Shown here: one piece after another, positions 167 to 64,000 of the stretch | Position numbering within the stretch: the first letter of the stretch is position 1 | How the letters are laid out: the number at the start of each line of letters is the position of its first letter | From: Salibacter halophilus | GTDB taxonomy: Bacteria > Bacteroidota > Bacteroidia > Flavobacteriales_G > Salibacteraceae | DNA: 64,000 nt | Assembly: GCF_008806325.1 (NCBI RefSeq) | Contig: NZ_WACR01000001.1 | Coordinates: forward strand, 310,001 to 374,000 | Direction: 5' to 3' | Translations under genes and position numbers: made by a program | The notes under the pieces: model-generated | What the model saw: the letters and a program-made list of their open reading frames with translations, nothing else | Database searches by the model: none | Told to the model about the DNA's origin: nothing

Positions 167-1201
167 TTAGAATTGATGTTTCTTAACTGTTTCAATAAAT
201 AATTTCACCTTTTCCGGATTTGTATCCGGGTAAACTCCGTGGCCTAAATTAGCAATATATCGCTGACTACCAAAGTCTTCAAGCATTTGCTGAGTTTCTT
301 TTACAAGAACCTCATCGGGTGCATAAAGCGTACAGGGATCTAAGTTACCCTGTAATGTACGCTCATTACCAACTAGTTGCCTGCCTTCTTTACGGTCCAT
401 ATTCCAATCTAAGCCTACTGTATTGCAATTTAATTTTGCAATTTCACTGATGGAGCGGTAAGCACCTTTTGAAAAAACGGTTTTGGGCACAGTGTCAATG
501 CTATCGCAAATTTCTTTGATGTATGGCAAAGCAAATTCCTCGTATTGTTTTTTGGGAAGTATGCCTGCCCAGCTATCAAAGACTTGTACCATATCAGCAC
601 CCGCTTCAATTTGTGCTTTAAGGTAAGTTATTGTGGTTTGTGTTATCTTATTAAGCACAGAGTGTGCCAAAGTTGGATTTTGATATAAAATCTTTCGTGC
701 GTTACTGAATGTTTTTGAGCCGCCACCTTCTACTATATATGAGAATATTGTCCACGGAGCTCCAGCAAATCCAATTAATGGAACACGACCATCGAGTTCT
801 TTTTTCGTGAGTGATATGGCATCGCTAACATATCTCAACTTGTCGTGTGGATCAGGGATAATGAGTGACTCGGCATCGCGCTCGGTTCTGACCGTTGTTT
901 CAAAAATAGGTCCTACTCCCTTTTTCATTTGATAGGTAACGCCCATCGCCTCGGGAACTACAAGTATATCAGAGAAGATGATAGCGGCATCAACTCCCAA
1001 AATATCGACCGGCTGCAAGGTAACTTCACAAGCTAGCTCAGGTGTTTCAACCAGTTCTTTAAACCCTGATAATGAATTGCGAACAGCTCTGTATTCGGGC
1101 AAAATCCTGCCTGCCTGGCGCATTAGCCAAACGGGCACTCTCTCAACTTTCTCGCCTCTTGCGGCTCTGAGTATTAAATCGTTTTTCAATTGTAATTTCA
1201 T
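167..1201 (-). CDS. hemE: Uroporphyrinogen decarboxylase
   Basis: Decarboxylates the four acetate side chains of uroporphyrinogen III to give coproporphyrinogen III in haem synthesis; cytoplasmic. The 344-residue length is normal for the family. The N-terminal signature is clear ([15 protein letters not shown] around residues 23-37), as is IGFAGAPWT near residue 145, and GHGVYPDT near the end. The ATG at 1201 is chosen because a TATATTTG promoter element sits only 10 bases upstream. A terminator separates it from aconitase, so it is probably a separate transcription unit. A copy of the dispersed GGTCAGANCC motif lies at 884-893, encoding Val-Arg-Thr. Confidence 0.97.
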
Positions 1202-1211
1202 TTGAGGTGTT

Positions 1212-1245
1212 CAAATATACAACTTGCTCACTTCTGTTAAGTCAA
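1212..1245 (-). promoter_or_regulatory. hemE promoter
   Basis: On the minus strand TATATTTG (1219-1212) fits the Bacteroidota -7 box TAnnTTTG, and a TTG at 1245-1243 lies 23 bases upstream, at the long end of the accepted spacing. The -7 box ends 10 bases before the hemE ATG, giving a very short leader. Confidence 0.55.
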
Positions 1246-1248
1246 TAA

Positions 1249-1276
1249 AAAACCCCGACAATTTTGCCGGGGTTTT
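1249..1276 (-). terminator. Terminator after aconitase gene
   Basis: AAAACCCCG (1249-1257) pairs with CGGGGTTTT (1268-1276) around a 10-base loop, giving a stem of nine pairs with an A tract on one side and a T tract on the other. It lies between the end of the aconitase gene and the hemE promoter on the same strand. Confidence 0.85.
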
Positions 1277-1296
1277 CTGTTAAGCTCTAGTGTGAA

Positions 1297-3564
1297 TTAG
1301 TTCGCATAGATCTTTTTGATGAGATTCAATGCAGAACCTTCTTTGAACCATTTAATTTGGTTCTCATTGTATGTGTGGTTCACTTTAATGGTATCAGTTG
1401 ATCCATCTTTGTGTTTGATCTCAACAGTAAGCTGCTTATCTGGAGCAAAATCTTTAAGATCAACAAAGTCGAATCTGTCGTCTTCCTGGATTTTGTCATA
1501 ATCAGCTTCATTGTCAAATGTCACAGCTAGTACACCTTGTTTTTTGAGGTTTGTTTCGTGAATACGAGCAAATGATTTTACGATCACTGCTCTCACACCG
1601 AGGTGACGTGGCTGCATTGCTGCGTGCTCACGAGATGATCCCTCTCCGTAGTTGTGATCTCCAACTACAACTGAAGGAATACCTTTAGCTTTGTATTCGC
1701 GCTGTACATCAGGAACTGCTCCGTACTCACCTGTGATTTGACTTTTGACTTTATCAGTCTCCTTATTGTAAGCATTTACAGCTCCTGTAAGTGTATTGTT
1801 TGAAATATTGTCGAGGTGACCTCTATATCTCAACCATGGACCAGCCATTGAAATGTGGTCAGTAGTACACTTACCATAAGCTTTGATAAGAAGAACAGCA
1901 TCAGTTAAGTTTTCACCGTCCCACGCGTCAAATGGTGTAAGAAGTTGTAAACGGTCAGATCCGTCTTTCACTTTTATATCAACACCGCTTCCGTCTTTAG
2001 CCGGCTTTTGGTAACCTGAATCTTCAACAGCAAATCCATCAGATGGAAGCTGAATACCTTGTGGTTCATCGAGTTTTACTTCTTCGCCATCTTCATTGGT
2101 AAGCGAATCTGTCAATGGGTTAAACGCCAAGTCACCTGCAATAGCCATAGCTGTAACGAGCTCTGGAGATGCTACAAATGCGTGAGTATTTGGGTTTCCA
2201 TCATTACGCTTAGCAAAGTTTCTGTTGAATGAAGTAATGATCGAGTTTTTCTTTTCAGGATCATCAGTGTGACGAGCCCACTGACCGATACATGGCCCGC
2301 ATGCATTCGCCAGAACTACTCCGCCCATTTTATCGAACTTTTGGAGAATTCCGTCACGTTCTGCTGTGAATCGAACCTGTTCAGATCCAGGAGTAATTGT
2401 AAACTCAGATTTAGCCTTAAGATTTTTGCTAACCGCCTGATCAGCAATTGAAGCTGAACGAGTAAGATCCTCGTAAGATGAGTTTGTACATGACCCTATA
2501 AGTCCAACTTCAAGCTTTTGTGGCCAACCTTCTTCTTTTACTTTCTTGGCAAATTCAGAAATTGGTGTTGCTAGATCTGGAGTGAAAGGACCATTAATGT
2601 GTGGCTCAAGTTCACTGAGGTTAATTTCAATTACCTGGTCAAAGTATTTTTCAGGATTATCGTAAACATTGTCATCAGCGCGAAGGTGTTCTCTAACACT
2701 TTCAGCGAGTTCAGCTACATCTTCTCTATCGGTATTCTTGAGATAAGTAGCCATTGATGTATCGTAATTGAAAAGCGATGTTGTGGCTCCAATCTCAGCA
2801 CCCATGTTACAGATTGTACCTTTACCAGTACAAGACATAGATTCAGCACCAGGTCCAAAGTATTCTACAATGTGGCCTGTACCACCTTTTACAGTAAGGA
2901 TACCAGCAACTTTGAGGATGACATCTTTAGCTGATGTCCATCCGCTCATTTCACCGGTAAGCTTAACACCAATAAGTTTAGGGAACTTGAGCTCCCATGG
3001 CATTCCGGCCATCACATCAACTGCATCAGCACCACCAACACCAACTGCGAGACTACCGAGTCCGCCTGCGTTAGGAGTGTGAGAATCGGTTCCGATCATC
3101 ATACATCCAGGGAAAGCATAGTTTTCGAGAACTACCTGGTGAATAATACCCGCACCCGGCTTCCAAAAACCGATACCGTATTTGTTAGATACAGATTCGA
3201 GAAAGTTGTATACTTCGTTGTTCTTATTGATCGCTTCCTGTAAATCTTTATCAGCTCCAACTCTTGCCTGGATCAGGTGATCACAGTGTACAGTTGAAGG
3301 AACTGCTGTTTTATCTCTTCCCGATTGCATGAATTGCAAAAGAGCCATTTGAGCAGTAGCATCTTGCATCGCTACACGATCTGGTCTAAAGTCAACGTAA
3401 TCTTTTCCTCGCTTGTACTCTTTTGTTGGGTCACCTTCATCGAGATGAGAATATAGGATTTTCTCTGCCAGCGTTAGTGGGCGTCCCACTATTTCGCGGG
3501 CTTTCTCAATCCTACCAGGCATATTTTTATATGCTTCTTTAATAAGATCTAAATCAAAAGCCAT
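1297..3564 (-). CDS. acn: Aconitate hydratase
   Basis: Interconverts citrate and isocitrate via cis-aconitate in the TCA cycle, using a [4Fe-4S] cluster. The 755-residue protein resembles the mitochondrial-type aconitase common in Bacteroidota. The three cluster cysteines are visible: GSCTNSS near residue 358 and ACGPCIG near 423-426. The C-terminal swivel domain carries [15 protein letters not shown] near 640, including the substrate-binding Ser-Arg. Start ATG at 3564. A motif copy at 1953-1962 encodes Gly-Ser-Asp-Arg between the catalytic and swivel domains. Citrate synthase lies 50 kb away in the same window, so the TCA genes are not clustered. Confidence 0.96.
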
Positions 3565-6230: not shown

Positions 6231-6248
6231 TTTTGGTCAGAACCAAAA
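6231..6248 (+). repeat. GGTCAGAACC motif as a perfect hairpin (intergenic copy)
   Basis: TTTTGGT, CAGA, ACCAAAA: a seven-pair inverted repeat whose centre is the dispersed motif (6235-6244). It is the only one of the 31 copies outside a gene, lying between the divergent rpsF and dnaX, about 20 bases upstream of the rpsF -33 element. Confidence 0.8.
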
Positions 6249-7469: not shown

Positions 7470-8078
7470 GTGTCAGGTAAAGCCAATCCCCAAAATCAGT
7501 CTCAAGGTGAGAAAATAAGGCGGGAAGTTCGCAACAATGCTCAAAAAGGATCTGACCAAAACAGTCCTAAAAGGGTAGTTAGACCTTTGCAAGATAAGTT
7601 CAGGAGCAAAAGTGTTATCAGAATTAAAAAGCAAGAGTCTGAGAATTCTTCAAACTCTAACGATAATAAGGATGAATCTGTAGTATCGGGTGAAACGAGA
7701 AACTTCACTAAAGAAGAGTTTGATGCAGCGTGGGAAGAAACTACAGTTGAATTCCTGAATGATGGGAAAAAGTCGCTTGCCAGCATGTTGAAGCGCAGAG
7801 ACCCAGAAGTGGATATTGATAATGCTACTGTCCATATTAAACTCGATCATAAAGCTGCAAAACTGGAATTTGATGGTTATCGATCAGATTTACTGGGAAA
7901 GCTCAAGAGCAAGCTACGCAACGATAATATTCAATTATCATTTGACATCTTGAAACAAAAAGATGATGCTGATAAAGGGAAATTATTCACTAACTCAGAC
8001 AAGTTCAACAAATTGGCTGATAAAAATCCGGCATTAAAAACACTGAGAAAGAAACTTGGGTTAGATTACGATTTTTAA
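7470..8078 (+). CDS. dnaX: DnaX C-terminal (tau-specific) region in the -1 frame
   Basis: This frame is open from the A10 run at 7403 (first -1-frame residues LLDPELSLLDFPIL) to the stop at 8078; a GTG at 7470 could start it independently, but I consider that less likely. A disordered Lys/Ser/Asn-rich linker runs to about residue 65, and includes Gly-Ser-Asp-Gln encoded by a motif copy at 7548-7557. A compact C-terminal domain follows (SLASMLKRRDPEV to KKLGLDYDF) that resembles the C-terminal domain of Bacteroidota DnaX. Joined to 6325-7419 it would give a protein of roughly 580 residues, a normal tau-type length. Confidence 0.8.
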   Translation: MSGKANPQNQSQGEKIRREVRNNAQKGSDQNSPKRVVRPLQDKFRSKSVIRIKKQESENSSNSNDNKDESVVSGETRNFTKEEFDAAWEETTVEFLNDGKKSLASMLKRRDPEVDIDNATVHIKLDHKAAKLEFDGYRSDLLGKLKSKLRNDNIQLSFDILKQKDDADKGKLFTNSDKFNKLADKNPALKTLRKKLGLDYDF

Positions 8079-10220: not shown

Positions 10221-11591
10221 TTAAGGAGTGTTTACAAAGTAAACTAAATCAGTAGCTCTCGTTACCGCAGTGTAGAGCCATCTCAAATAATCCTGATCCA
10301 GCCATTCTTCCTGGAAGAACGATTGATCTATAAAAACTACAGGCCATTGTCCGCCTTGAGATTTATGACAGGTAAAGCTGTAAGCAAACTTTATTTGCAA
10401 GGCATTATAAAGTGGATCAGACTTAACAGCAAGTAAGGCTTTTTTCTTGTGACCAAACTCTTCGTAAAAATAACTCATCCTTTCATTGAATAGTTTTTTT
10501 TGGTCTTCTTGATTCAAATTTGAACTCGCTTCCTTGAGCGTGTTCAAGAGTAAAACAGCGTCAATTTGTTTGTCCTCAGCACTATTTATAAATGTAATAG
10601 ATGCTTCAGCAAATTTGAAGTCTTCAATACTTTCAAAATTTGTAACTCTATCTACCTGAACAATATCTCCATTTGCTATGAAATCTTCACGGTCAGAGCC
10701 CAGCCAGAAATAATTATTGCGTACAATCATAATCAAATCACCGGCATCGATCTCGTTCTCTCGAAAAAGTACAGTTTTTCTCAGCTGTTCATTGTACATA
10801 TTTGCAAGCTTGTTTGACCGTGTGACCACAATAAACCCATCTTCTCCGTACTGACTCATGACACTCTGTACTACATCACTCATTTCATTTGAGTTAATGC
10901 TAAATACATCCTCATTATTAATGATGAACTCTGGTAACTCCTTAACTCCGTCTTCAATATTTTTCCTGATTAGAGTAGCGTTTTCTAGTATCCCTGAGAG
11001 TTCCTCTTGTCTCACAACCTCCTTTAATTCCGCTCCGTCAATGGATAGTTTGTATCGACCCAACATATCTTTGGGAACTAAAGCTGGGCTTAAGTTCGTG
11101 CCAACCGGAGGAAGTTGAGCAATATCTCCTACCAGTATTAATTGATTAGACAAATTCTCGTAAACGAAATCTACTAAATCATCGAGCAAATTACTTTCAC
11201 CTGCAGTTAACTCACCAGATATCATTGAAGCCTCGTCCACTATGAAAATGGTGTTTTTTAATTTATTTTCTTTCCTTGAAAAATGATAACCCTGCTCTCC
11301 TAAATCGAGTAATCGGTAGATGAATTTATGAATTGTAAATGCCGGCTTTTCACTGTAGTTTGACATCACTTTTGCAGCTCGACCTGTTGGTGCAAGCAAT
11401 ATCGTGTTCTGACCAATAGCATTACTCCATTTCACTAAAGCTGAAATACAGGTTGTTTTACCAGTGCCTGCAAATCCTCTTAAAATGAATAGTTGCTTTT
11501 TATCATTAAGAGTAAATTGCTCAAGCCTTGACAAACAATTCACCTGATCTTTAGTAGGCTCGTGATCGATGTAATCAAAAAGTGTTTTCAT
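10221..11591 (-). CDS. RecD/PIF1-like superfamily 1 DNA helicase
   Basis: A 456-residue ATP-dependent 5'-3' type helicase. Visible: Walker A GFAGTGKTT, motif II IVDEASM, motif III VGDIAQLPPVG, and C-terminal UvrD-C2 motifs SFTCHKSQGGQW and YTAVTRATDLVYF. There is no separate N-terminal RecD2 domain, so it is the short form found across Bacteroidota. The ATG at 11591 (MKTLFDYIDHEPTKDQ) is preferred; the upstream 30 in-frame residues look like leader. A motif copy at 10691-10700 encodes Gly-Ser-Asp-Arg. The cellular role (repair or recombination) is inferred from the family. Confidence 0.9.
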   Translation of the reverse strand: MKTLFDYIDHEPTKDQVNCLSRLEQFTLNDKKQLFILRGFAGTGKTTCISALVKWSNAIGQNTILLAPTGRAAKVMSNYSEKPAFTIHKFIYRLLDLGEQGYHFSRKENKLKNTIFIVDEASMISGELTAGESNLLDDLVDFVYENLSNQLILVGDIAQLPPVGTNLSPALVPKDMLGRYKLSIDGAELKEVVRQEELSGILENATLIRKNIEDGVKELPEFIINNEDVFSINSNEMSDVVQSVMSQYGEDGFIVVTRSNKLANMYNEQLRKTVLFRENEIDAGDLIMIVRNNYFWLGSDREDFIANGDIVQVDRVTNFESIEDFKFAEASITFINSAEDKQIDAVLLLNTLKEASSNLNQEDQKKLFNERMSYFYEEFGHKKKALLAVKSDPLYNALQIKFAYSFTCHKSQGGQWPVVFIDQSFFQEEWLDQDYLRWLYTAVTRATDLVYFVNTP

Positions 11592-11645
11592 TGAAAGAGT
11601 TCTGCATTCAATTTGGCTTTTCAATATTAAGGAAATGAATGAGTA

Positions 11646-11674
11646 TTTGTCATTTAAAAAAAATTGTAAGTTTG
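11646..11674 (+). promoter_or_regulatory. Promoter of the 11718 operon
   Basis: TTTG (11646-11649), 17 bases, then TAAGTTTG (11667-11674), matching the Bacteroidota -33/-7 pattern upstream of the five-gene operon beginning at 11718. Confidence 0.65.
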
Positions 11675-12490: not shown

Positions 12491-13321
12491 TTGAATAGAT
12501 CAACGACTTTAAATACTATTGAGCATTATGGAAGCAGCCCTTCAAAAGAGGCTGCTTCTTTGTGTTCAGGTGTGGCTGTTTTAGATGTACACCACCTAAC
12601 AGTTGCTTCATTCAATTCTTCAACGAATGAGTTTCAGGAATACTTTGTTTTTGATGTTCCTGAAAACACATCATCACTAAAGGAATTGATGAATAAGCTA
12701 CAGCTAAAAAAGCTGTATGTAGCAGTTCAAAACAACCAATTCACTGTTGTGCCTACTGGTGTTATCACCCCTGAAAATAACACGGAGTACCTCAACTTTA
12801 TTTTGGGAGAAAAACGCAATCAAAAGGAAAGCTCAATGGTGATTAATAATCTAACAGCTAACCTTTTGTATCGGATTGATCAATCAGTTTTCAAGGATCT
12901 GACCAAAAATGGTATTACTGTATTACACCCGGCAGGAAGCGCTTTAGCTTATCACTCTGTTTTTAATGATGACAAAGCTCATCATGCGGTCTTTCTTCAC
13001 ATTTTTGACGAAGCATTTCACATCTATTTTTTCAAAAATGGCTTGTACCACTCTAACTCATTTAAAATTACATCTGATGCTGATATAGCGTACTACACAC
13101 TATATTCAATGGAGCAGTTAGAGATTTCAGTTGAGGATACCCCAGTTCATTACACCGTGCAAACAAGTAAGCAACTGAATCAACTCGATTCTTTGAAAAA
13201 TTATTTACCAAAACTTGCACCTATTGAGCTCGACACATCTTTTGAACTGAACAAAGATCTTCAAGAGACACTTCCAAATGGTGTGGGCATAACACTTTTA
13301 AGTACATTGTTGTGCGAATAA
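12491..13321 (+). CDS. DUF3822 family protein
   Basis: A 276-residue protein of the DUF3822 family, which in Bacteroidota regularly precedes rsmD and coaD. The function is unknown; the fold is thought to be related to the ASKHA ATPase fold, but no clear phosphate loop is visible. The start is a TTG five bases after the stop of the upstream gene. Its 3' end overlaps the rsmD start by 10 bases, suggesting translational coupling. A motif copy at 12895-12904 encodes Asp-Leu-Thr-Lys. Confidence 0.75.
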   Translation: MNRSTTLNTIEHYGSSPSKEAASLCSGVAVLDVHHLTVASFNSSTNEFQEYFVFDVPENTSSLKELMNKLQLKKLYVAVQNNQFTVVPTGVITPENNTEYLNFILGEKRNQKESSMVINNLTANLLYRIDQSVFKDLTKNGITVLHPAGSALAYHSVFNDDKAHHAVFLHIFDEAFHIYFFKNGLYHSNSFKITSDADIAYYTLYSMEQLEISVEDTPVHYTVQTSKQLNQLDSLKNYLPKLAPIELDTSFELNKDLQETLPNGVGITLLSTLLCE

Positions 13322-14303: not shown

Positions 14304-15709
14304 TGAAGCGATTAATCTTCCTTTTCACAGTTCTTTCCCCTCTATTGAGTACCGCACAATTGAGTGGTTCAATAGAAGGTTTTTACGGTCAAAAAATCTA
14401 TCTGCTCAAAACAGTTGAAGCACTCTCGGGGACTTACGACAAACTCGACTCAGGCCTTATTAGTGAAGATGGAAGTTTTTCATTTCGGTCAGAGCCGGAA
14501 TCAGGCTTTTATTACCTCAAAATAGAAGATCGGTACACTCCGTATTTTCACGATCAACGGTGCGATAAACCAATTACTTTAAAAACACCTGAAGACCTCA
14601 ACAACAAGCTCATCCCAGTAGAGGTTGAATATGCATGCTCTTCAAAAAACTATCAATTCTTACATGAAGCAGCTATGTTACAGGATAGTGCAGTAGCTGA
14701 TTTTATTGAACGCAATCCAGCACCAAAAAAAGACACGCTATTTCCCAAAAACTTACGTGATTTTAACGACTCACTCACTTCGGTTCTGACCGAAGCACAT
14801 GAGAAATTCCCGCAACTCAAACAGGACTTAAAATTGAGAGTCACATCGCTCAAAGTACTTTCAGGCGCTAATCGTGATAGTGTCAAAAAGAGTATTTTCA
14901 AGTCTGAGCCAATAAAACCGGAATCAGCAGATTACCTGTCTTTATTCCTGCAGGTGTACAATCGCGACATCGATCATTTCCTGCTCGTCAACAAATCTCG
15001 CTACACAGATTCATTGATTGTTTACAGCGGATTTAAAGCTGTAGTGAACTTATTCCTTTCTGATTCACTTTTTGAAAGAAGAGACATGGCTGAGCTCGCC
15101 CTGATTACAAAACTACATTTCAACGAGCTGCCCAATGTGAAACCATCTCGCAAGAAAACACTGCTCAAACAAGCTATTGAAGATGCTGAAACACCAATTA
15201 TCAAACGTATTGCTTCGAGTATCTTAGCTGACATGTCTCATCTAAAAAAATCGAGTAAAGCACCGGCTATCAATTTGCGTGATACCCTGGGAAATTTGGT
15301 TACCCTCGATCAATTTAAAGGTTCATACGTTTACATCCAGTTTTGGGCAACCTGGAATGAAGCATCTGTTGAGGATCTGGTTTTCATGAATCAACTCTAC
15401 GCAAAATACAAGAATAAAATTGCTTTCCTTAGTATTTCAGGCGATCGCAATCAGGAAGACTTTTACAGCTTTGTTCAGAACCACAGTTATCCCTGGCAGA
15501 TTCTCCATTACAACAAAAAATTCAGCCTGATTGAAAAGTATTCTGTCAGATCCTATCCGATGTATTTCTTAGTTGATCCTGATGGAAAATTAGCCCTTTC
15601 TCCCGCTTACGAACCGAATAGAATGATCGGTTATTTTGACGCTATTATCAACTCAGGTGAGGATGCCGTAAAAGATTTTGAAATTATTCGCGATTATAAG
15701 GAAGATTAG
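14303..15709 (+). CDS. TlpA-like thioredoxin-fold protein lacking the CxxC motif
   Basis: A 468-residue exported protein. Signal peptide (LIFLFTVLSPLLSTAQ), an N-terminal DUF4369-like beta domain, a helical middle, and a C-terminal thioredoxin/AhpC-TSA domain from about residue 325. The expected WCxxC is replaced by WATWNEAS near residue 347, so both redox cysteines are missing and it should not act as a disulfide reductase; a binding or structural role is inferred. Two motif copies lie inside (14487-14496, encoding Arg-Ser-Glu-Pro; 14782-14791, encoding Val-Leu-Thr-Glu). The 3' end overlaps the convergent Nudix gene by 26 bases. Confidence 0.85.
   Translation: MKRLIFLFTVLSPLLSTAQLSGSIEGFYGQKIYLLKTVEALSGTYDKLDSGLISEDGSFSFRSEPESGFYYLKIEDRYTPYFHDQRCDKPITLKTPEDLNNKLIPVEVEYACSSKNYQFLHEAAMLQDSAVADFIERNPAPKKDTLFPKNLRDFNDSLTSVLTEAHEKFPQLKQDLKLRVTSLKVLSGANRDSVKKSIFKSEPIKPESADYLSLFLQVYNRDIDHFLLVNKSRYTDSLIVYSGFKAVVNLFLSDSLFERRDMAELALITKLHFNELPNVKPSRKKTLLKQAIEDAETPIIKRIASSILADMSHLKKSSKAPAINLRDTLGNLVTLDQFKGSYVYIQFWATWNEASVEDLVFMNQLYAKYKNKIAFLSISGDRNQEDFYSFVQNHSYPWQILHYNKKFSLIEKYSVRSYPMYFLVDPDGKLALSPAYEPNRMIGYFDAIINSGEDAVKDFEIIRDYKED
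14780..14793 (-). repeat. GGTCAGAACC motif as a hairpin inside a gene
   Basis: TTCGGT, TCTG, ACCGAA: six pairs around the motif core (14782-14791), extending by one further pair on each side. It is the second copy forming a perfect hairpin, but copies with G or T at the variable position cannot do so, so the hairpin is not the shared property. Confidence 0.7.
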
Positions 15710-18574: not shown

Positions 18575-20737
18575 ATGAGCAAACAACAAGATTCTAAGCG
18601 CTCTAATAGAGTTAAGGGTAATATTCCCAAGCCGCCAAACAAGAACAACAAAAAGAAAAACAATTTCAATTTTTATTGGATCTACGCTATCATAGCTGTA
18701 GTGCTCATTTCTTTGAACTTGTTCAACTGGGGGCCTTCTCTAACGCCTACTACATTTCCAAAATTCAAGGAAATGGTTCAAAGTGGTGATGTAAATAAGG
18801 TCATCATTTACAATTATGAAAAGGCTAAGGTTTTTATCAAACCTGATTCCCTTGAGAAATATGAAGGAAAACTTCAGCAACCTTTAATTGGTGAGAACTC
18901 TCAAAAAGGACCTCACTTTGAATTCACCCCTCCAAAAGGAGATTTCTTTACTCAACAACTCGATGAGTGGCAAACGGAATACGATTTAGCATACGATTTC
19001 ATTCAACAGGACAACTGGGGAAGAGATATTCTCGGCTGGTTGATTCCAATTGGGTTGATGTTTGGCCTTTGGATACTGATCATGCGCAGAATGAGCGGTG
19101 GCGGTGGTCCTGGCGGACAAATATTCAACATCGGGAAATCAAAAGCTACCCTATTTGACAAAGAACAGGGAGTTAAAATCAACTTTAAAGATGTTGCCGG
19201 TCTAGAAGAAGCTAAAGAGGAAGTAATGGAAATCGTTGATTTCCTCAAAAACCCCAAACGCTACACTGCCCTTGGAGCTAAAATCCCTAAAGGTGCATTA
19301 CTGGTAGGCCCTCCTGGTACAGGTAAAACATTGCTCGCAAAAGCTGTTGCCGGTGAAGCGCAGGTTCCATTCTTCTCACTTTCAGGGTCAGATTTTGTTG
19401 AGATGTTTGTTGGTGTTGGAGCTTCTCGTGTTCGTGACCTCTTTAAACAGGCGAAAGAAAAAGCTCCTTGTATCGTATTCATAGATGAGATTGATGCAAT
19501 TGGTCGTGCTCGTGGTAAAAACGCGATGCAGGGATCAAATGATGAACGCGAAAACACATTGAACCAACTCCTTACTGAGATGGACGGTTTTGGAACAAAT
19601 AGCGGTGTTATCATTTTAGCAGCTACTAACCGTGCTGATGTTCTGGATAGAGCATTACTTCGTCCGGGACGTTTTGATCGTCAAATCAATGTTGATTTGC
19701 CAGAAAAAGAAGAGCGTAAAGCAATTTTCAAAGTTCACTTGAAGCCTTTGAAGCTTAAAGACAATGTGGATATCGAATTCTTAGCGAGCCAAACTCCAGG
19801 GTTTAGTGGTGCTGAAATCGCAAACCTCTGTAACGAAGCAGCGCTTATTGCCGCTCGTAAAAAGAAAAAAGAAATCGATAAGCAGGACTTCTTAGATGCG
19901 GTTGATAGAATCATTGCCGGGCTCGAGAAGAAAAGCAAGATCATTACTCCTGAAGAAAAGAAAACAATCGCTTTTCACGAGGCTGGTCACGCAACAGTGA
20001 GCTGGTTGTTAGAACACGCTTCACCACTTGTGAAAGTAACTATTGTGCCGCGTGGTAGAAGTCTGGGTGCAGCCTGGTATCTACCGGAAGAGCGTCAAAT
20101 CACAACCAAAAAACAGCTCTTTGATGAAATGTGTGCTGCGCTTGGTGGTCGTGCTGCTGAGGAAATCACATTCAACGAAATTTCAACCGGTGCATTGAGT
20201 GATTTGGAGAAAATCACCAAACAAGCTTATGCGATGGTCAAGATGTACGGACTCAATGATAAAATCGGAAACATTAGTTACTACGATTCATCAGGTCAAA
20301 ATGACTACAACTTTACTAAGCCATACAGTGACACAACTGCTGATGTTATTGATAAAGAGGTTAGTAAGCTCATTGAATCCATGTATGTTCGTACGAAGAA
20401 CCTTCTTATCGAAAATCAAGACAAACTGAATGAATTGGCTGAGTTACTTCTCGAAAAAGAGGTTATCTTTAGAGAAGATTTGGAACGCATTTTTGGTAAA
20501 CGTAAATTTGAAACCAAAGCTGACAAAACAGCTGAGCAAATTAGGTTGACTGAAAAGCAAGCTCAGGAAAAAAGCAGTGATAACGGTCAGAGCCAAAAAG
20601 AGCTCCCGTCAAAAGACAAAGATTCTGAGGATAAGCCGAAAAGCGATTCCGGATCTGACCAAAAAACTGATGAAAAGAAAGACTCTGATAAGAGTGATAA
20701 AAAAGAAGAAAGCACTTCAGATAATACGTCTAAATAA
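18575..20737 (+). CDS. ftsH: ATP-dependent zinc metalloprotease FtsH
   Basis: A membrane-anchored AAA+ protease of 720 residues for membrane quality control. Order: a Lys/Asn-rich cytosolic start, first transmembrane helix (about 35-52), periplasmic domain, second transmembrane helix (about 150-170), AAA domain with Walker A GPPGTGKT near 245 and Walker [10 protein letters not shown], then the M41 peptidase with HEAGH near 467. The last roughly 80 residues are a disordered Lys/Glu/Asp/Ser tail. Two motif copies in opposite orientation lie in that tail (20585-20594 and 20651-20660), writing Gly-Gln-Ser-Gln and Gly-Ser-Asp-Gln. Confidence 0.97.
20585..20660. repeat. Inverted pair of GGTCAGANCC motifs in the ftsH tail
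   Basis: GGTCAGAGCC at 20585-20594 and GGATCTGACC at 20651-20660, opposite orientations, 56 bases apart, both in the low-complexity 3' end of ftsH. Confidence 0.85.
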
Positions 20738-45344: not shown

Positions 45345-46031
45345 ATGAGTGAGCTAAAAATCAACCCTCAAATAGAACCTTCGTGGTTAGAGGTTTTAAA
45401 AGAAGAGTTCGAAAAAGATTACTTTAAATCGATTAAAGAACATCTTATTGAAGACAAAAAGAACCACACGATCTATCCTCCCGGAAGCATGATTTTTGAG
45501 GCATTCAATCAAACTCCTTTTGATAATACCAAGGTTGTTATTCTAGGTCAGGATCCTTACCACGGACACGGTCAGGCTCACGGAATGTGTTTTTCTGTGC
45601 AAAAAGGAGTTGCCATCCCTCCCTCTCTCAAGAATATTTACCAGGAATTAAAAAAAGACCTTGGAATTGAGCCCCCAAACCACGGACACCTCATGAGTTG
45701 GGCTAAAGAAGGCGTGTTCTTGCTCAATGCATTTTTGACGGTCAGAGCCAAATCACCTGCATCGCACCGCAAAATTGGATGGGAGAAATTTACAGATCAG
45801 GTGATTAAATTACTCTCTGATCATAAAGAACATCTCGTTTTCATCCTCTGGGGAAACTTTGCCAAACAAAAACAAGAATACATTGACACGGATAAACATT
45901 GTGTGATTACCTCACCTCATCCCTCACCTTTTTCAGCAAATAATGGTTTCTTTGGCAGCAAACCCTTTAGCAAAGCAAATGAATACTTACAATCTAAAGG
46001 GATTGAACCCGTTAATTGGGAAATTAAATAA
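45345..46031 (+). CDS. ung: Uracil-DNA glycosylase
   Basis: Removes uracil from DNA in base excision repair. The 228-residue protein has the water-activating loop VILGQDPYHGHGQAHG near residue 63, a catalytic Asp there, and the DNA-intercalation loop HPSPFSANNGFFG near residue 190. It is followed by the Omp85 gene after one base. A motif copy at 45740-45749 encodes Val-Arg-Ala-Lys. Confidence 0.96.
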   Translation: MSELKINPQIEPSWLEVLKEEFEKDYFKSIKEHLIEDKKNHTIYPPGSMIFEAFNQTPFDNTKVVILGQDPYHGHGQAHGMCFSVQKGVAIPPSLKNIYQELKKDLGIEPPNHGHLMSWAKEGVFLLNAFLTVRAKSPASHRKIGWEKFTDQVIKLLSDHKEHLVFILWGNFAKQKQEYIDTDKHCVITSPHPSPFSANNGFFGSKPFSKANEYLQSKGIEPVNWEIK

Positions 46032-46032
46032 A

Positions 46033-47754
46033 GTGAAAATACGGCTAGCATTCATATTTATAGTAGTCGCACAATTTGCTTACTCTCAAAACTGGAGTTT
46101 CCGTTTTCCTATAGACTCAGTAGATGTATCCAAAATTGAACTGGATGAAGAGTCGCTTACTCCGGTAAAAAAATCATTATTGGAAATCCAAAGTGATCTC
46201 TATCAAAACGGTTATTTAGCAGCCTCAATTGATAGTTTCAAAATTGATTCTGCATCAGCAATCATTAGTGTTTATCTCAAGAAAGGAGATTCGTACAAAT
46301 GGACTTCTCTAAACCCCGGCAATACCGATGAAGGAATACTTTCCAAATTAGGTTACCGAACAAAAGTCTATCGAAATAAACCTGTAAACAGTAAACAGGT
46401 TGCAAATCTGCTCGATGATCTCATTACTCATTATGAAAACAATGGATTCCCATTTGCATCAGCCCAATTAGATTCTCTTAAAGTTGATGGAAATGATATT
46501 GAAGCATCTCTCTATGTAGAGAAAGGAACGAAAGTCACAATCGATTCAATAAGGTTTATATCAGAAGATAAACTACCTGAAAACTATTTGGCTAACTACA
46601 TCAACATCACGAAAGGATCTCTGTACAGTGAAAAGAAAATCGGGCAAATTGAAACCCGTTTTCAGGAGCTGTCATTTGCCAATTTATCCAGAAAACCTGA
46701 AGTTCTGTTTGGGAAGAATAACACTATTTTGGTTCTGACCGTGAAAAAAGAAAAAGCGAACAACATTGACGGGGTTTTAGGTTTTCAACCTCAGGAAGAT
46801 GAAAATGAAGACCCAATATTTACTGGCGATGTACAACTGAACTTTAAAAATGCCCTTGGAATAGCCGAAAAAATTGCGCTGCAATGGAAAAGACTCCAGG
46901 ATCAAACTCAACGAATCGATTTGGAAGTTGAGATACCTTACATTTTTAAAACACGTTTTGGTGTATCAGGCGAGTTGGGCATTTACCGGCTAGATACTTC
47001 ATTTACCAATATTGAGCAACAACTCGGCATTCATTATTACTTGCGTGGAGACGATAAAATCACGGCATTTATCAATCAGTCATCAACAAATTTGATCTCA
47101 ACAGAGCAATTTGAACAAAATACATCTCTCCCTGAAAATGCAGATGTCTCTTATTTATCTTACGGCCTGGGAGCAACAATAAGCAACCTTGATTATCGAT
47201 TGAACCCCTCAAAAGGTTATGAATTAAAAATAAAAGGGCTTGTTGGGAATAAAGAAATAGAACGAAATCCGGCACTTGAAAACGTGGATTACGACAGTAT
47301 TGAACTCTCTACTACTCAATACAAAACCCAGCTCAATTTCAATCACTACATTCCATTAGCTGAGCGACTCGTTTTTAACAACAACGTTCAGGGAGGCTTG
47401 CTCTACAACGAATCGCTGTTCAAAAATGAGCTGTTTAGAATTGGCGGATTGCGCACTTTGCGTGGCTTTGATGAGGAAAGTATCTTTGCCTCGAGCTATG
47501 CAATCCATAAATCAGAGATCCGTTATATCTTAGAGCGAAATTCCTTTGTTTATGGCTTTTTCAACTGGGCATGGTACGAACGTGACATTTCAAACGAATT
47601 CGTAACTGATGTGCCTTACGGTTTTGGAGCCGGAGTTAGCTTTGAAACAAAAGCGGGAATTTTCACAATTAATTACGCGCTGGGAAAACAGTTTAATAAC
47701 CCTGTCACATTCAGATCCGGAAAAGTGCATTTCGGATTTGCGAACTTCTTTTAA
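46033..47754 (+). CDS. Omp85/TamA-like outer membrane protein
   Basis: A 573-residue exported protein with POTRA-like repeats (about residues 40-250; patterns LDDLITHYENNGFPFASAQ and KGSLYSEKKIGQIETRFQE) and a C-terminal 16-strand surface-antigen barrel ending GFANFF with the terminal Phe needed for insertion. RGDDK and GGLRTLRGFDEESIF (the conserved RGF motif of the lid loop) are visible. Probably a TamA-like assembly or export protein rather than BamA, as it is shorter. The GTG at 46033 is used because a signal peptide (LAFIFIVVAQFAYSQ) begins there. A motif copy at 46731-46740. Confidence 0.86.
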   Translation: MKIRLAFIFIVVAQFAYSQNWSFRFPIDSVDVSKIELDEESLTPVKKSLLEIQSDLYQNGYLAASIDSFKIDSASAIISVYLKKGDSYKWTSLNPGNTDEGILSKLGYRTKVYRNKPVNSKQVANLLDDLITHYENNGFPFASAQLDSLKVDGNDIEASLYVEKGTKVTIDSIRFISEDKLPENYLANYINITKGSLYSEKKIGQIETRFQELSFANLSRKPEVLFGKNNTILVLTVKKEKANNIDGVLGFQPQEDENEDPIFTGDVQLNFKNALGIAEKIALQWKRLQDQTQRIDLEVEIPYIFKTRFGVSGELGIYRLDTSFTNIEQQLGIHYYLRGDDKITAFINQSSTNLISTEQFEQNTSLPENADVSYLSYGLGATISNLDYRLNPSKGYELKIKGLVGNKEIERNPALENVDYDSIELSTTQYKTQLNFNHYIPLAERLVFNNNVQGGLLYNESLFKNELFRIGGLRTLRGFDEESIFASSYAIHKSEIRYILERNSFVYGFFNWAWYERDISNEFVTDVPYGFGAGVSFETKAGIFTINYALGKQFNNPVTFRSGKVHFGFANFF

Positions 47755-51081: not shown

Positions 51082-53421
51082 ATGAAAAATTCATTTCTCA
51101 TTCTGTTCCTGTTTTTATCGGTAATGGTCAGATCGCAGGTGACTTACGACAACATGGAAAATCTCCGTTCAGATTCGATCGATGTTTTGCATTATCACCT
51201 CGATTTAGACATGACACAAACCGAAAACCAGTTTATAAGTGGAGCCGCTACCGTGAAATTCAGCTCGCTGGATGACGGATTACAGCACCTACCACTCGAT
51301 CTGCTGGCTCTGACCGTTGATAGCGTAAAACAAGAAAATCAACAATTGAATTTTTCTTATAATGACACACTGCTCATCATTAATCTGGGCAGAGTGGTTG
51401 ACTCTAGCGATGTTGATTCAGTAGTTGTACATTACAGCGGTTCGCCAACTCAGGATGCAACCTGGGGCGGGTTTTTCTTTTCAGGGAACTACGCGTATAA
51501 CATGGGAGTTGGATTTGATGCTAAACCGCACAATTACGGACGTATTTGGCACCCTTGTTTTGATAATTTTAAAGAAAGGGCTACTTACTCATTCAATGTA
51601 AAAACAGATGACAATCAGGTATCGACCTGTAATGGGATTTTGGTCAATGAAACGCAAAATGGACAAGTAACGACAAGACAGTGGGAACTGAATGATGCAA
51701 TCCCGAGTTATTTAGCCTGTATTGCAGTTGCCCCTTACGCAACGGTTCATCAAAACCACCGTAACATCCCGATTGAACTCTACTCACTTCCATCTGACAC
51801 CAACAATTTAAAAGCCTCTTTTTCCACTCTTCCCGATGCGATGGACGCTTACATAGATAATTATGGTCCATATCGATTCAGCAAAGTAGGCTACTCGATT
51901 GTTCCATTTAATGCAGGCGCAATGGAACACGCGACCAATATTGCTTATCCGCGCTATGCGATTGACGGTACACTGGGAAATGAAACACTGATGGCTCATG
52001 AGCTCTCTCATCACTGGTGGGGCGATTTAGCAACTTGTGAAACACCTGAGGAAATGTGGCTCAACGAGGGAATGGCCAGTTTTTCAGAATACCTTTATCT
52101 GGAACACGTTTACGGCTACGATCGTGCAAAACAAGCTATCAAACAAACACTTGAAACAGTGGTCAAGAGAGCTCACATTGACGAAGATGAGTTCAGGCCA
52201 GTATCTGGCGTGCCGCATCAGTACACTTATGGACGCCATGTTTACGACAAAGGATCTCTTGTAGCTCACAACCTGCGTTTCTACCTTGGTGATTCTACAT
52301 TCTTTAACGGAGTTGAATCCTTTCTCGATCAATACAGGTTTAAAACCATGAACTCTGAACAGCTCCGCGATCATCTGAATACTCAATCTACAACTGATAT
52401 TTCTCCGTTTTTTGACGATTGGGTTTTTGGTGCCGGATTTCCAACAATTGAAATCGAAGAGTTTAGTTCGAGCCAATCAGGCAATAATTACGCTATTGAG
52501 CTCACAACTGAGCAAAAGCTGTTTGGAGCTGACGAGTTTTACACGAATGTTCCGGTCAATATCACTTTTTACGGTCAGAACCGGGAGAAGCACACTGTTC
52601 GTGTTGTTCATGATAGTCAGTTTGCAACACATTACATCAACAATGTTCCGTTTGACCCTCAGTTTGTAACAGTAAATGAGGATGTCAAACTTGCGCAAGC
52701 TGTATTAGATGACTTTTACGAGATTGAATCGCCCGGTCAGTTGACAGCCGATTACAGCAATTTTGATCTCGATGTAAAGCAAGTTTCAGACTCTGCTCTT
52801 TTGCGAGTTGAACACTATTATTCAGCCGCTGATGAAGTCGACAAATCTTTTCAGCCATATAAAATCTCAAATACGCATTACTGGCGAGTTGATGGTATTA
52901 TCCCAATTGATTTCCACGCTACAGGATCACTGCAATACAGTGCATCAGGCACAAACTCATTCCTCGACACAGGACTGGTAAGTACAACTGAAGATAGTCT
53001 GATTCTACTTTACAGAGAAATTGGAAGTGACCAATGGAGCGAGTATCCTCACTACTCAAAAAATGTACTTGGGAACCCGAATAACGGTTTTGGTTTGATT
53101 CAGCTCGATACAGTGTTGTTAGGTGAATATGCTTTTGCGAATCTCGATCACTCTGTACTGGGAAAGAGTGAACTAAAAATGCCTTCTGAAAAAGATTACA
53201 AGCTATATCCTAATCCAACTAAAGACTTTGTAAATGTAAGTTGTAATGAATGCAAAGGCTCAAAATTGTCTTTGTTCAATGTGAAAGGACAACTGATCAA
53301 AGAGGATGAATTGACTCAGGATCTGACCAGAATCCAATTACCTGATAGCACAGGCAAATACATTTACATCATCAAAGACGATGATAAAATTCTTGAACGC
53401 GGAACATTGATTTCGCAATAG
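51082..53421 (+). CDS. M1 family metallopeptidase with T9SS sorting domain
   Basis: A 779-residue secreted zinc aminopeptidase-like protein. Signal peptide (FLILFLFLSVMVRSQ), M1 N-terminal beta domain, then the catalytic domain: HELSH near residue 305, 18 residues later NEGMAS with the third zinc ligand Glu. The substrate-recognition GAMEN motif reads GAMEH near residue 278. A C-terminal type A sorting domain (YKLYPNPTKDFVN onwards) sends it through T9SS. Likely releases amino acids or short peptides for nutrition (inference). Three motif copies: 51306-51315, 52573-52582, 53319-53328. The ATG at 51082 overlies the signal peptide; an upstream start at 51046 is rejected. Confidence 0.92.
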   Translation: MKNSFLILFLFLSVMVRSQVTYDNMENLRSDSIDVLHYHLDLDMTQTENQFISGAATVKFSSLDDGLQHLPLDLLALTVDSVKQENQQLNFSYNDTLLIINLGRVVDSSDVDSVVVHYSGSPTQDATWGGFFFSGNYAYNMGVGFDAKPHNYGRIWHPCFDNFKERATYSFNVKTDDNQVSTCNGILVNETQNGQVTTRQWELNDAIPSYLACIAVAPYATVHQNHRNIPIELYSLPSDTNNLKASFSTLPDAMDAYIDNYGPYRFSKVGYSIVPFNAGAMEHATNIAYPRYAIDGTLGNETLMAHELSHHWWGDLATCETPEEMWLNEGMASFSEYLYLEHVYGYDRAKQAIKQTLETVVKRAHIDEDEFRPVSGVPHQYTYGRHVYDKGSLVAHNLRFYLGDSTFFNGVESFLDQYRFKTMNSEQLRDHLNTQSTTDISPFFDDWVFGAGFPTIEIEEFSSSQSGNNYAIELTTEQKLFGADEFYTNVPVNITFYGQNREKHTVRVVHDSQFATHYINNVPFDPQFVTVNEDVKLAQAVLDDFYEIESPGQLTADYSNFDLDVKQVSDSALLRVEHYYSAADEVDKSFQPYKISNTHYWRVDGIIPIDFHATGSLQYSASGTNSFLDTGLVSTTEDSLILLYREIGSDQWSEYPHYSKNVLGNPNNGFGLIQLDTVLLGEYAFANLDHSVLGKSELKMPSEKDYKLYPNPTKDFVNVSCNECKGSKLSLFNVKGQLIKEDELTQDLTRIQLPDSTGKYIYIIKDDDKILERGTLISQ

Positions 53422-53435
53422 AATTTTTACCAAAC

Positions 53436-53467
53436 AAAAAAAGCGAGTGTCTCCACTCGCTTTTTTT
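53436..53467. terminator. Bidirectional terminator, M1 peptidase / gltA
   Basis: Seven A, GCGAGTG (53443-53449), a four-base loop, CACTCGC (53454-53460), seven T. A perfect 14-pair hairpin between convergent genes. Confidence 0.95.
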
Positions 53468-53486
53468 ATGTCTATTTAAAACTCTC

Positions 53487-54872: not shown

Positions 54873-57292
<2,420 letters not shown>

Positions 57293-57364: not shown

Positions 57365-57982
57365 TTATTCTGATGATTTGTCATCTTTTTTATCATCTTT
57401 AGCTTCAGACTTTGGAGCCTCTTTCTTTGGCTTCTCTTCTTTCTTTTCCTCAGCTTTCTTTGATTCAGTTTTAGCCTCAGTAGCTTTTTCTTCTTTTTGG
57501 TCAGAGCCAGACTCAGCAGCAGCTTTTTCTGTTGCTTTATTATCTGTAGACTTTTTGCTACCTCCGCCTCTACGACTTCTTCTTGTTTTCGTTTTAGCAG
57601 ACTTCTCTTCTTTTCCGTAAACTTCGTTGAAGTCAACTAATTCGATAAGGCACATTTCAGCTGCATCACCCTGGCGAAAGCCAGTTTTGATGATACGTGT
57701 GTAACCACCCGGCCTGTCAGCTACCTTAGGAGCAACGGATCTGAATAGTTCAGATACTGCATCCTTGCTTTGGAGTTGTTTAAAAACAATTCTACGTGAA
57801 TGTGTAGAATCGGTTTTAGAGCGTGTAATCATAGGCTCTATATAACCTCTCAAAGCTTTAGCTTTAGCTACGGTTGTTACAATTCTTTTATGCTCGATTA
57901 AAGAACAAGCCATATTTGCAAGCATTGCCCTTCTGTGGCCTGCTTTTCTTCCTAAATGATTAAAAGACTTTTTGTGTCTCAT
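57365..57982 (-). CDS. rplQ: 50S ribosomal protein bL17 with long disordered tail
   Basis: The first roughly 115 residues are a normal L17 ([38 protein letters not shown]). They are followed by about 85 residues rich in Lys, Glu, Ala and Ser, a tail seen in several Bacteroidota. The tail carries one motif copy (57499-57508) encoding Gly-Ser-Asp-Gln-Lys, the same peptide as in the FtsH tail. Last gene of the operon. Confidence 0.96.
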
Positions 57983-62808: not shown

Positions 62809-62818
62809 GAGGGTATCT

Positions 62819-63337
62819 TTATCCGTTAAATACTTTGTCAATACTAATACCTCTTGTTTGTGCAATTGTAGATGCATCTCTAAGTTGAGCTAATGCATCA
62901 ATAGTTGCTTTAACAACATTAGCTGGGTTTGATGAACCTTTTGACTTAGCGAGTACATCTGTTACTCCTACACTTTCAAGTACAGCACGCATAGCACCAC
63001 CGGCAATTACACCAGTACCATGAGATGCTGGTTGAATATAAACACGAGCTCCACCGTATTTACCCAATTGAGCATGTGGGATAGAACCGTTGATTACTGG
63101 AACCTTGATAAGGTTTTTCTTAGCATCATCAATACCTTTTGATATTGCAGTAGTAACTTCTTTTGCTTTACCTAACCCGTGACCAACAACACCGTTTTCA
63201 TCACCTACTACTACAACTGCTGAAAAGCCAAAGGTTCTACCACCTTTTGTAACTTTAGTTACTCTGCGAATATTAACGAGCTTGTCTTTGAGCTCAATAT
63301 CGCTGGATTTAACTTTCTTTATGTTCGTCTTAGCCAT
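62819..63337 (-). CDS. rpsE: 30S ribosomal protein uS5
   Basis: A 172-residue S5: [37 protein letters not shown] and the C-terminal domain ending VDKVFNG-like (ISIDKVFNG). Seven bases before this start lies rplR. Confidence 0.97.
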
Positions 63338-63343
63338 AATATC

Positions 63344-63697
63344 TTAAAATTTTAAACCAGCTTCTCTGGCTGCATCTGCGAAAGCTTTTACTCTACCGTG
63401 ATAGAGATAACCATTTCGGTCGAATACAACTTTATTAATACCTGCTTCAACAGCTTTTTCTGCGGCTAACTTACCTACAAGTTTAGCCTGGTCTATTTTT
63501 GGAATTCCGTGTGCCTCTTTAACATTCAATGATGTTACTGAAAGTAGTGTTTTATCAGTTTTGTCATCAATGATTTGAGCATAAAACTCTTTATTACTTC
63601 TGTACACAGAAAGCCTTGGTCTTTCCGCATCACCAGATAGTGACTTGCGGATTCTTCTCTTGATCTTATTTCTTCTTTCTAACTTCGAGATAGCCAT
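63344..63697 (-). CDS. rplR: 50S ribosomal protein uL18
   Basis: A 117-residue L18 that binds 5S r[27 protein letters not shown] near the start and [21 protein letters not shown] near the end. Confidence 0.97.
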
Positions 63698-63706
63698 AGG
63701 TCAATT

Positions 63707-64000
63707 TTATTTAGCAGCTGCTTTACCAGCTTTTCTGCGAATATGTTCTCCAACAAAACGAATACCTTTTCCTTTGTAAGGCTCTGGTTTTCTAAGTGAT
63801 CTCAATTTAGCAGCGCACATTCCAATGAGCTGTTTGTCATGAGATTCTAAAGTAACAAGTGGATTTTTACCACGCTCAGACACTGCAGTAACTTTAACCT
63901 CTTTAGGAAGTTGGAACACGATATTGTGTGAAAATCCTAATGAAAGCTCAAGGTTCTGACCCTGTGCAGTTGCACGGTAACCTACACCTACTAGTTCCAT
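63707..64000 (-). CDS. rplF: 50S ribosomal protein uL6 (C-terminal part)
   Basis: Ninety-seven residues of L6 are visible, from MELVGVGYRA to the basic end GKAAAK; the N-terminal half lies beyond the window and the Met at 64000 is internal. YKGKGIRFVGEHIRRKAGK is the family's C-terminal signature. A motif copy at 63952-63961 encodes Gly-Gln-Asn-Leu, the only copy in the 6.5-kb ribosomal run upstream of rplQ. Confidence 0.96.
   Translation of the reverse strand: MELVGVGYRATAQGQNLELSLGFSHNIVFQLPKEVKVTAVSERGKNPLVTLESHDKQLIGMCAAKLRSLRKPEPYKGKGIRFVGEHIRRKAGKAAAK

Follow-up and report, generated by a model that had tools for sequence, protein, structure and literature searches.

A 10-bp motif with ordered directions in one Cryomorphaceae genus: a candidate self-DNA signal

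Why would a bacterial chromosome carry the same non-palindromic 10-mer every few kilobases, on both strands? The question is raised by a 64,000-nt stretch of Salibacter halophilus DNA (referred to here, at its full length, as the window), throughout which the motif GGTCAGANCC is dispersed; one written form of the motif-bearing sequence is TTTTYGGTCAGARCC. We suggest, with a probability of about 0.45 and judging from sequence, that the motif acts as a directional self-DNA signal in DNA exchange within a single genus of the Cryomorphaceae. This suggestion is built on the abundance and clade limits of the motif and on the directions of its neighbouring copies in the genome that holds the window (the focal genome) and in its relatives.

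Abundance, composition and clade limits of the motif

The window contains 31 exact copies of GGTCAGANCC (14 on the plus and 17 on the minus strand), the first at position 884 and the last ending at 63961. Both this count and the roughly 0.2 matches expected by chance had been given in a first-pass annotation of the window; our recount is the same, and 100 dinucleotide shuffles of the window contained a mean of 0.21 matches and never more than 1. The enrichment is not confined to the window, a point for which that annotation had proposed a genome-wide count: the focal genome (3,122,189 bases) carries 739 forward and 743 reverse copies, 1482 altogether, at a density of 1 per 2.1 kb, as compared with 3 + 1 copies of the reversed pattern used as a control. 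All finer statistics given below refer to 850,409 of the 3,122,189 bases of the focal genome (385 of 1482 sites) and, for the related genome G002, to 777,393 of about 2.8 Mb (224 of 824 sites). The 16 most enriched 8-, 9- and 10-mers listed for the 850 kb of the focal genome are all parts of the motif.

The variable position 8 is occupied by A in 108, G in 130, T in 139 and C in only 8 focal copies, and the single C copy annotated in the window is indeed the one at 36382. Single mismatches at positions 1, 2 and 10 are found 282 times, against about 35 expected from base composition, while those at positions 3, 7 and 9 are found 16 times against about 26; the ends of the motif are tolerant of mismatch. 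Its 5' flank is T-rich with C or T immediately preceding the motif, and the flank [A/T][C/T] that had been annotated was recovered across the 202 sites of 450 kb of contig 1: 97% of them have C or T at the adjacent 5' position, and 87% have A or T one base further out. Beyond the motif and this flank there is little conservation.

Tolerant ends resemble those of HIP1 (GCGATCGC) of cyanobacteria, a frequent and clade-limited sequence whose one-base deviations fall preferentially on its two terminal bases and for which matching methyltransferases are described (excerpt of PMC4390886). It is, however, rather improbable that a methyltransferase or mismatch repair makes and keeps the motif in a HIP1-like manner, with no role in uptake: HIP1 is palindromic, directionless and tied to methyltransferases, whereas the motif is not palindromic and follows the direction rule described in the next section. 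That the motif arose as a side effect of coding or of a mobile repeat has a practically negligible probability. Among the sampled focal copies, 352 of 385 lie inside genes as called by a simple hexamer script, as such an origin would have it, but they use five reading frames (sense 78, 28 and 50; antisense 76 and 120; the sixth contains a stop), so that no one peptide explains them; the near-absence of the reversed pattern (4 copies) and the scant conservation around the motif likewise speak against it.

Among the 60 genomes searched (the focal genome included), three carry the motif, all of one genus: the focal genome with 1482 copies, Cryomorphaceae bacterium T3Sed10_378 (G001) with 486 and Cryomorphaceae bacterium SRR4030052_bin.21 (G002) with 824. 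The two sister carriers are incomplete bins (83% complete for G001, 94% for G002). The other 57 genomes have 1 to 38 copies, mostly close to the reversed-pattern control, with a few mild excesses (for example 26 versus 0 and 32 versus 4, motif versus reversed pattern). In a draw of 395 genomes of the class, 361 of which had not been among the 60, the focal genome alone carried the motif; the next highest had 65 copies, and mild excesses such as 64 versus 5 were again seen. In total, the motif is present in 3 of 421 genomes of the class and the remaining 418 have at most 65 copies, and the counts in related genomes that the first pass had called for thus show it to be restricted to one Cryomorphaceae genus. 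Within the genus the motif exists as species variants: the copies of G002 conform to a sharper consensus, in which GGTCAGARCC follows a run of T, and 77% of them have A at position 8, a usage that differs from that of the focal genome. In the stretches inspected of three sister genera (200 kb of G003, 100 kb each of G011 and G014), the motif is absent and no 9-mer is comparably enriched; the best ratios there are 10.6, 7.1 and 5.2, as compared with 24–32 in the focal genome and 28–30 in G002.

Directions of neighbouring copies

Across 450 kb of contig 1, the motif occurs 100 times on the plus and 102 times on the minus strand, while all nine 50-kb bins share a negative GC skew. As judged by GC skew, the lack of strand bias reported in the first-pass annotation therefore holds, and this balance under one skew sign renders replichore-polarised signals unlikely. 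The FtsK-orienting sequences (KOPS) are short, dispersed and directional as well, but they follow the replichore, which the motif does not; nor does it exhibit the leading-strand excess known of the Chi sites of Escherichia coli. What the first pass had missed is the succession of directions: 26 of the 30 successive pairs in the window are oppositely oriented. The 31 copies, placed relative to the genes called by script, are the following.

884..893, minus strand: GGTCAGAACC, sense in a URO-D family gene (167-1201)
1953..1962, plus strand: GGTCAGATCC, antisense in an aconitase family gene (1297-3564)
6235..6244, plus strand: GGTCAGAACC, intergenic by the script's gene calls
7548..7557, minus strand: GGTCAGATCC, antisense in gene 7470-8078
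10691..10700, plus strand: GGTCAGAGCC, antisense in a RecD2-related helicase gene (10221-11681; under the NCBIfam cut-off)
12895..12904, minus strand: GGTCAGATCC, antisense in gene 12491-13321
14487..14496, plus strand: GGTCAGAGCC, sense in an AhpC/TSA-domain gene (14303-15709), convergent with 14782
14782..14791, minus strand: GGTCAGAACC, antisense in the same AhpC/TSA-domain gene (14303-15709), convergent with 14487
20585..20594, plus strand: GGTCAGAGCC, sense in an FtsH-type gene (18575-20737), convergent with 20651
20651..20660, minus strand: GGTCAGATCC, antisense in the same FtsH-type gene (18575-20737)
22658..22667, plus strand: GGTCAGAGCC, antisense in gene 22460-23233
24978..24987, minus strand: GGTCAGATCC, sense in a DUF7033 gene (24326-25639), divergent with 25016
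25016..25025, plus strand: GGTCAGATCC, antisense in the same DUF7033 gene (24326-25639)
29083..29092, minus strand: GGTCAGAGCC, sense in a prolyl-tRNA synthetase gene (27679-29196)
29956..29965, plus strand: GGTCAGAGCC, sense in gene 29238-30368, convergent with 30141
30141..30150, minus strand: GGTCAGATCC, antisense in gene 29238-30368
33156..33165, plus strand: GGTCAGAACC, antisense in a NIF3 family gene (32700-33794)
34196..34205, minus strand: GGTCAGATCC, intergenic by script, yet within an LpxK open reading frame (ORF; 33843-34973)
36382..36391, plus strand: GGTCAGACCC, the only C variant of the window, sense in a GatB gene (35720-37225), convergent with 36970
36970..36979, minus strand: GGTCAGAGCC, antisense in the same GatB gene (35720-37225)
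38831..38840, plus strand: GGTCAGATCC, antisense in gene 38336-39331
43157..43166, minus strand: GGTCAGAGCC, sense in gene 42677-43579
44262..44271, minus strand: GGTCAGAGCC, sense in gene 43581-44333
45740..45749, plus strand: GGTCAGAGCC, intergenic by script, yet within ORF 45345-46031
46731..46740, minus strand: GGTCAGAACC, antisense in gene 45943-47754
51306..51315, minus strand: GGTCAGAGCC, antisense in an M1 peptidase gene (51046-53421)
52573..52582, plus strand: GGTCAGAACC, sense in the same M1 peptidase gene (51046-53421), convergent with 53319
53319..53328, minus strand: GGTCAGATCC, antisense in the same M1 peptidase gene (51046-53421)
57118..57127, minus strand: GGTCAGATCC, sense in a carbamoyl-phosphate synthase small-chain gene (56168-57292)
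57499..57508, plus strand: GGTCAGAGCC, antisense in gene 57365-57982
63952..63961, minus strand: GGTCAGAACC, sense in gene 63707-64261 (window numbering), which starts past the window end

The alternation was first seen in the window and is put to the test by G002, by the degenerate copies and by the sampled sequence outside the window. The 450 kb of contig 1 hold 138 runs of orientation where 102 are expected (z 5.1), with run excesses also on the sampled parts of contigs 2 and 3 (z 1.8 and 3.4), and 252 of the 382 sampled focal neighbours are oppositely oriented (p 4e-10). The rule depends on spacing, the opposite fraction being 0.8–0.9 below 1 kb (113 opposite neighbours; 103 of 120 at 100–1000 bp), about 0.65 at 1–2 kb and about half beyond 2 kb. 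At 100–750 bp, same-direction pairs in the focal genome are reduced to about a quarter (16 versus 57 expected) and convergent pairs are doubled (58 versus 28.5), while divergent pairs number 34 versus 28.5 (convergent versus divergent, p 0.016). Their total is near expectation (108 versus 114), and hence it is the directions that are ordered.

In G002, 28 of 30 neighbours at 100–1000 bp are opposite, and same-direction pairs at 100–750 bp number 3 where 23 are expected; among the neighbouring sites listed for G001, 38 of 48 are opposite and 10 point the same way. Degenerate copies with a mismatch at position 1, 2 or 10 obey the rule relative to the nearest perfect copy within 1 kb (131 opposite and 52 same in the focal genome, 27 and 6 in G002), while copies with an inner mismatch exhibit no clear rule (28 opposite versus 16 same in the focal genome, 9 versus 10 in G002). 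Six ordinary 8-mers of like abundance, all of them AT-rich, gave opposite fractions of 0.39–0.54 in the focal sample. Close neighbours thus mostly alternate in direction in the two sampled genomes.

Two ready explanations of the alternation were discarded. If opposite copies paired as RNA or as a cruciform, their variable letters should match, but they do so in 16 of 72 convergent, 21 of 50 divergent and 10 of 28 same-direction pairs within 1 kb, where chance would give about a third. The position of copies within genes is not the whole cause either. Sense copies do lie nearer the gene start (mean 0.40) and antisense copies nearer the end (0.54; p 1.3e-6) in the focal genome, also when genes with a single copy are considered (p 0.004), and the plain means in G002 are 0.41 and 0.47; yet a simulation that keeps this bias produced 64.5 opposite neighbours within 1 kb (sd 5.8, at most 86 in 5000 runs), against the 113 observed. 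An orientation-linked bias in gene position, with a sign that depends on the motif, is reported as unexplained for the uptake sequences of Pasteurellaceae (excerpt of PMC2346458).

Exchange of self-DNA and its rivals

The uptake signals of Neisseriaceae and Pasteurellaceae, namely DNA uptake sequences (DUS) and uptake signal sequences (USS), are 9–12 bases long, occur in hundreds to thousands of copies and are clade-specific. The motif shares their marks: genome-wide copies far above chance, occurrence on both strands with no replichore bias, and restriction to a clade together with variants within it. It resembles the DUS of Neisseriaceae (ATGCCGTCTGAA and variants, read by ComP) in length class, copy number, clade variants and weaker peripheral bases (excerpts of PMC3868556 and PMC2346458), the peripheral bases of DUS being described as less important (excerpt of PMC3868556), and differs in its unrelated sequence and in that no ComP-type pilin was found in two of the three carriers, both incomplete bins. 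With the USS of Pasteurellaceae (AAGTGCGGT) it shares density, enrichment and presence on both strands.

The placement of the copies changes between relatives. Reciprocal best matching of the focal genome and G002 gave 112 pairs of orthologues (median protein identity 56%), 87 of which were used. Of 40 alignable focal sites, 7 are identical in G002, 2 differ by one mismatch and 31 by four or more; identity at 7 of 40 is more than the 3% that 10-mers give as a baseline, whereas a total of 9 of 40 with no or one mismatch is little above the corresponding 15%. Most focal sites, and somewhat over half of the few alignable G002 sites, are, as read from these alignments, placed independently. Five of the nine kept sites fall in one gene of about 2,865 codons (contig 2, about 45,405-54,002), which carries eight copies in the order + - + - + - + +; these five are at the same places in its G002 counterpart, at 64% protein identity.

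The motif is enriched, clade-limited and variable between species, has tolerant ends and turns over at a kept density, all of which holds for uptake signals as well and would hardly arise from selection on single sites; a drive by preferential import would be the simplest engine. We therefore picture the proposed self-DNA signal as follows. Uptake may favour motif-bearing DNA, or such DNA may, after entry, be spared and recombined in preference to other DNA, and copies would accumulate by biased import between cells of the same lineage. A putative reader would recognise the site with its direction; a second site in the same direction within 1–2 kb would be redundant, while an oppositely pointing and preferably facing partner would add something, which together with the import drive would build an alternating array. 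A linear fragment may, for instance, need one correctly pointing site per end, the reader acting inwards from each. The reader could be a Chi-type helicase-nuclease acting on incoming DNA, or else a pilus or pore whose loading of DNA has a polarity. Avoidance of same-direction neighbours combined with a preference for facing ones, as seen in the focal genome, suggests that the reader probably senses direction and that the two directions serve different ends; if one site per fragment sufficed, neighbours would be redundant in any direction, as they are in the USS comparison below. It is possible, though we hold it to be doubtful, that the functional unit is a facing pair within about 1 kb, i.e., a two-site, orientation-dependent self-DNA code that has spread over the chromosome by biased import and has a reader unrelated to ComP. 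To our knowledge, none of the dispersed signals DUS, USS, Chi, KOPS and HIP1 works as such a facing-pair code.

Several observations weigh against the exchange reading, and one of them is the behaviour of USS, which rather than DUS served as the yardstick for the orientation rule that the motif follows over 100–2000 bp. AAGTGCGGT was counted in 394 genomes of one order, 22 of which hold more than 600 copies (3,035 in 1.9 Mb in G125) and the rest at most 122; 20 of the 22 USS-rich genomes, assigned to the Pasteurellaceae by these very counts, were sampled. Their neighbouring USS at 100–1000 bp are randomly oriented (67 of 123 opposite), in contrast to the 103 of 120 of the focal genome (p 8e-8). 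Furthermore, convergent and divergent pairs at 100–750 bp number 15 and 9 in G002, each versus 11.6 expected, so that the sister genome repeats the avoidance of same-direction pairs while the convergent excess is clear in the focal genome only. The independence of the two arrays is partial, since 7 of 16 alignable G002 sites are identical in the focal genome. Intergenic enrichment is not seen in the focal genome, where 33 of 385 copies lie between genes that leave 11% of the sequence. To these points the pilus genes add that a T2SSE ATPase over the cut-off, a secretin and a ComP_DUS pilin were found neither in G002 (94% complete) nor in G001 (83%), that 16 of the 57 motif-free relatives possess ATPase and secretin, and that ComP_DUS is over the cut-off in 5 of the 60 genomes (4 of the 57 motif-free ones), the focal genome being the sole carrier among them.

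Within 100 bp, 39 of 43 USS pairs are opposite, which fits published terminator pairs (excerpt of PMC7811141). At 100–750 bp, the four pair types of USS number 32, 34, 30 and 35 against 43.4 expected for each, a mild and roughly equal reduction, and their orientation-linked position within genes is not visible in 187 intragenic USS (p 0.7). Since USS do not alternate beyond 100 bp, such an orientation rule is not something known of uptake signals. The same comparison bears on the idea that a nuclease or recombinase cuts at the motif, whereupon tandem copies within 1–2 kb are lost by annealing and deletion while opposite copies are safe. Such a loss accounts for the shortage of same-direction pairs and for its 1–2 kb range, but USS are of similar length and lack this shortage relative to opposite pairs, so that something specific to the motif would have to be invoked; as it also leaves the convergent excess of the focal genome and the multiplication of the motif unexplained, we regard it as very improbable.

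The first-pass annotation had proposed to look for competence and pilus genes. ComEC is present in the focal genome and in G002, and was not found in G001, an 83% complete bin. A cluster on focal contig 13, the contig that has ComEC as well, comprises a pilin, a GspE-type ATPase, a secretin and a prepilin-peptidase-like protein, the last of these below its cut-off. A plain DUS, bound outside the cell by a ComP-like minor pilin on a type IV pilus, with a separate cause for the orientation rule, could make use of these components. The pilin, however, matches the Pfam family ComP_DUS only marginally (28.4 bits, cut-off 27.3) and is nearer to PilA and GspG types in NCBIfam, all below their cut-offs; the orientation rule is absent from USS; and no association of the cluster with the motif was found, one of three carriers (the sisters being incomplete bins) having it while ATPase and secretin over the cut-off occur in the same 17 of the 60 genomes, with the focal genome as the sole carrier. 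Incompleteness could hide the cluster in one sister, less easily in both. We consider a ComP-read DUS improbable, although less so than a HIP1-like origin.

More weight is due to a Chi-type site, read one-sidedly at broken ends by an AddAB-like helicase-nuclease that then switches to recombination and serves mainly in the repair of breaks; we hold this to be unlikely, yet the strongest of the rivals. The first pass had set Chi aside for lack of strand bias, and this dismissal was too strong. Chi sites are dispersed as the motif is, and they are read in a direction-dependent manner, which fits a redundancy limited to sites that share a direction. An AddB-like ORF with a PD-(D/E)XK domain is found on focal contig 1, under the cut-offs of the AddB models, and PF12705 is matched in all three carriers, as it is in 59 of the 60 genomes searched; AddB-like proteins thus also occur in motif-free relatives. 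AddA was not identified in the focal genome and was not pursued further. Known Chi sites have 5–8 bases and are more widely shared, whereas the motif has nine fixed bases, is more enriched, genus-limited and alternating, and is devoid of strand bias. The 36 Chi sites in 200 kb of E. coli, a small sample, do not alternate: 3 of 5 neighbours at 100–1000 bp and 5 of 13 at 100–2000 bp are opposite, as compared with 171 of 224 for the motif at the latter distance (p 0.005). Nor is a convergent excess predicted by simple redundancy on each strand.

On balance, a role in exchange ranks first, Chi in the repair of breaks second and a plain ComP-read DUS third. The reading as a DNA uptake sequence, put forward in the first pass, stands insofar as the motif is a clade-specific, genome-wide signal at uptake-sequence density, while a role in uptake is conjectural, the pilus was not found in the sisters (incomplete bins) and the orientation rule is absent from USS beyond 100 bp; the other option offered there, that an unknown DNA-handling system binds the motif, has at least as much in its favour. 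Dispersed self-DNA signals as such are already known; what is new is an unrelated one in the Bacteroidota with a direction rule that USS do not show. Uptake signals are documented in Neisseriaceae and Pasteurellaceae, and a strong signal in the Bacteroidota would, if true, provide a third lineage for the origin of self-DNA codes. The alternation would be a quantitative footprint of the reader, telling that direction matters and over which distance ahead of any protein, and should that reader turn out to be a pore or nuclease and no pilin, self-recognition at the cell surface would not be the full picture. Within the Flavobacteriia, Riemerella columbina is reported to take up its own DNA preferentially; the k-mers tabulated for this species and for two relatives consist of AT-rich runs, which reach 3 to 8 times expectation or less (excerpt of PMC7965970).

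Gene context, other genomes and motif-free DNA

Unlike the focal genome, G002 has an intergenic enrichment: called genes leave 15% of its sequence, and this part contains 86 of the 224 copies, including 34 that follow a stop codon by no more than 60 bases as the script sets gene ends. A cruder ORF rule places 22 of 385 focal and 83 of 224 G002 sites outside ORFs. As two of the three script-intergenic sites of the window fall in listed ORFs, the intergenic counts are upper bounds. For USS, 111 of 298 copies lie outside called genes.

Convergent close pairs were scanned across 84,980 species, and the matches listed include the two Cryomorphaceae bins; among the other genomes listed, the same 10-mer is raised in Pseudoteredinibacter (183/183), Stenotrophomonas maltophilia (145/141) and a Parachlamydiaceae bin (40/40), and these nearly strand-equal counts probably point to hairpin repeats and not to this system. 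In the open-access papers searched, none of six exact 10-mers was found as a whole word (longer strings containing them would escape such a search). Among the papers listed for uptake sequences in Flavobacteria, Bacteroidetes and Cryomorphaceae, for USS orientation and alternation and for Chi, none mentions the motif or an alternating orientation in its title or at the start of its abstract. One of the papers listed for parts of the motif, on yeast, contains GGTCAGA.

In addition to the motif copies, the window encodes a 486-aa RecD2-related helicase (10221-11681; under the NCBIfam cut-off) and an RmuC-family protein (47757-49049). Six motif-free gaps of the focal sample are longer than 9 kb. 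The longest motif-free stretch sampled comprises 43 kb of contig 3 (84,941-128,289; GC 43%) with 32 called genes, ten of which were scanned and include an efflux system, a type I restriction subunit, a prokaryotic Argonaute and a BstXI-like endonuclease; from this gene content, the stretch would appear to be island-like DNA rich in defence genes. Within it (about 109,800-119,400), the Argonaute (PADLOC, 843 bits) is located between a ResIII-type helicase and the type I restriction subunit, and the genes for an IrrE-like protein and the BstXI-like endonuclease adjoin this group.

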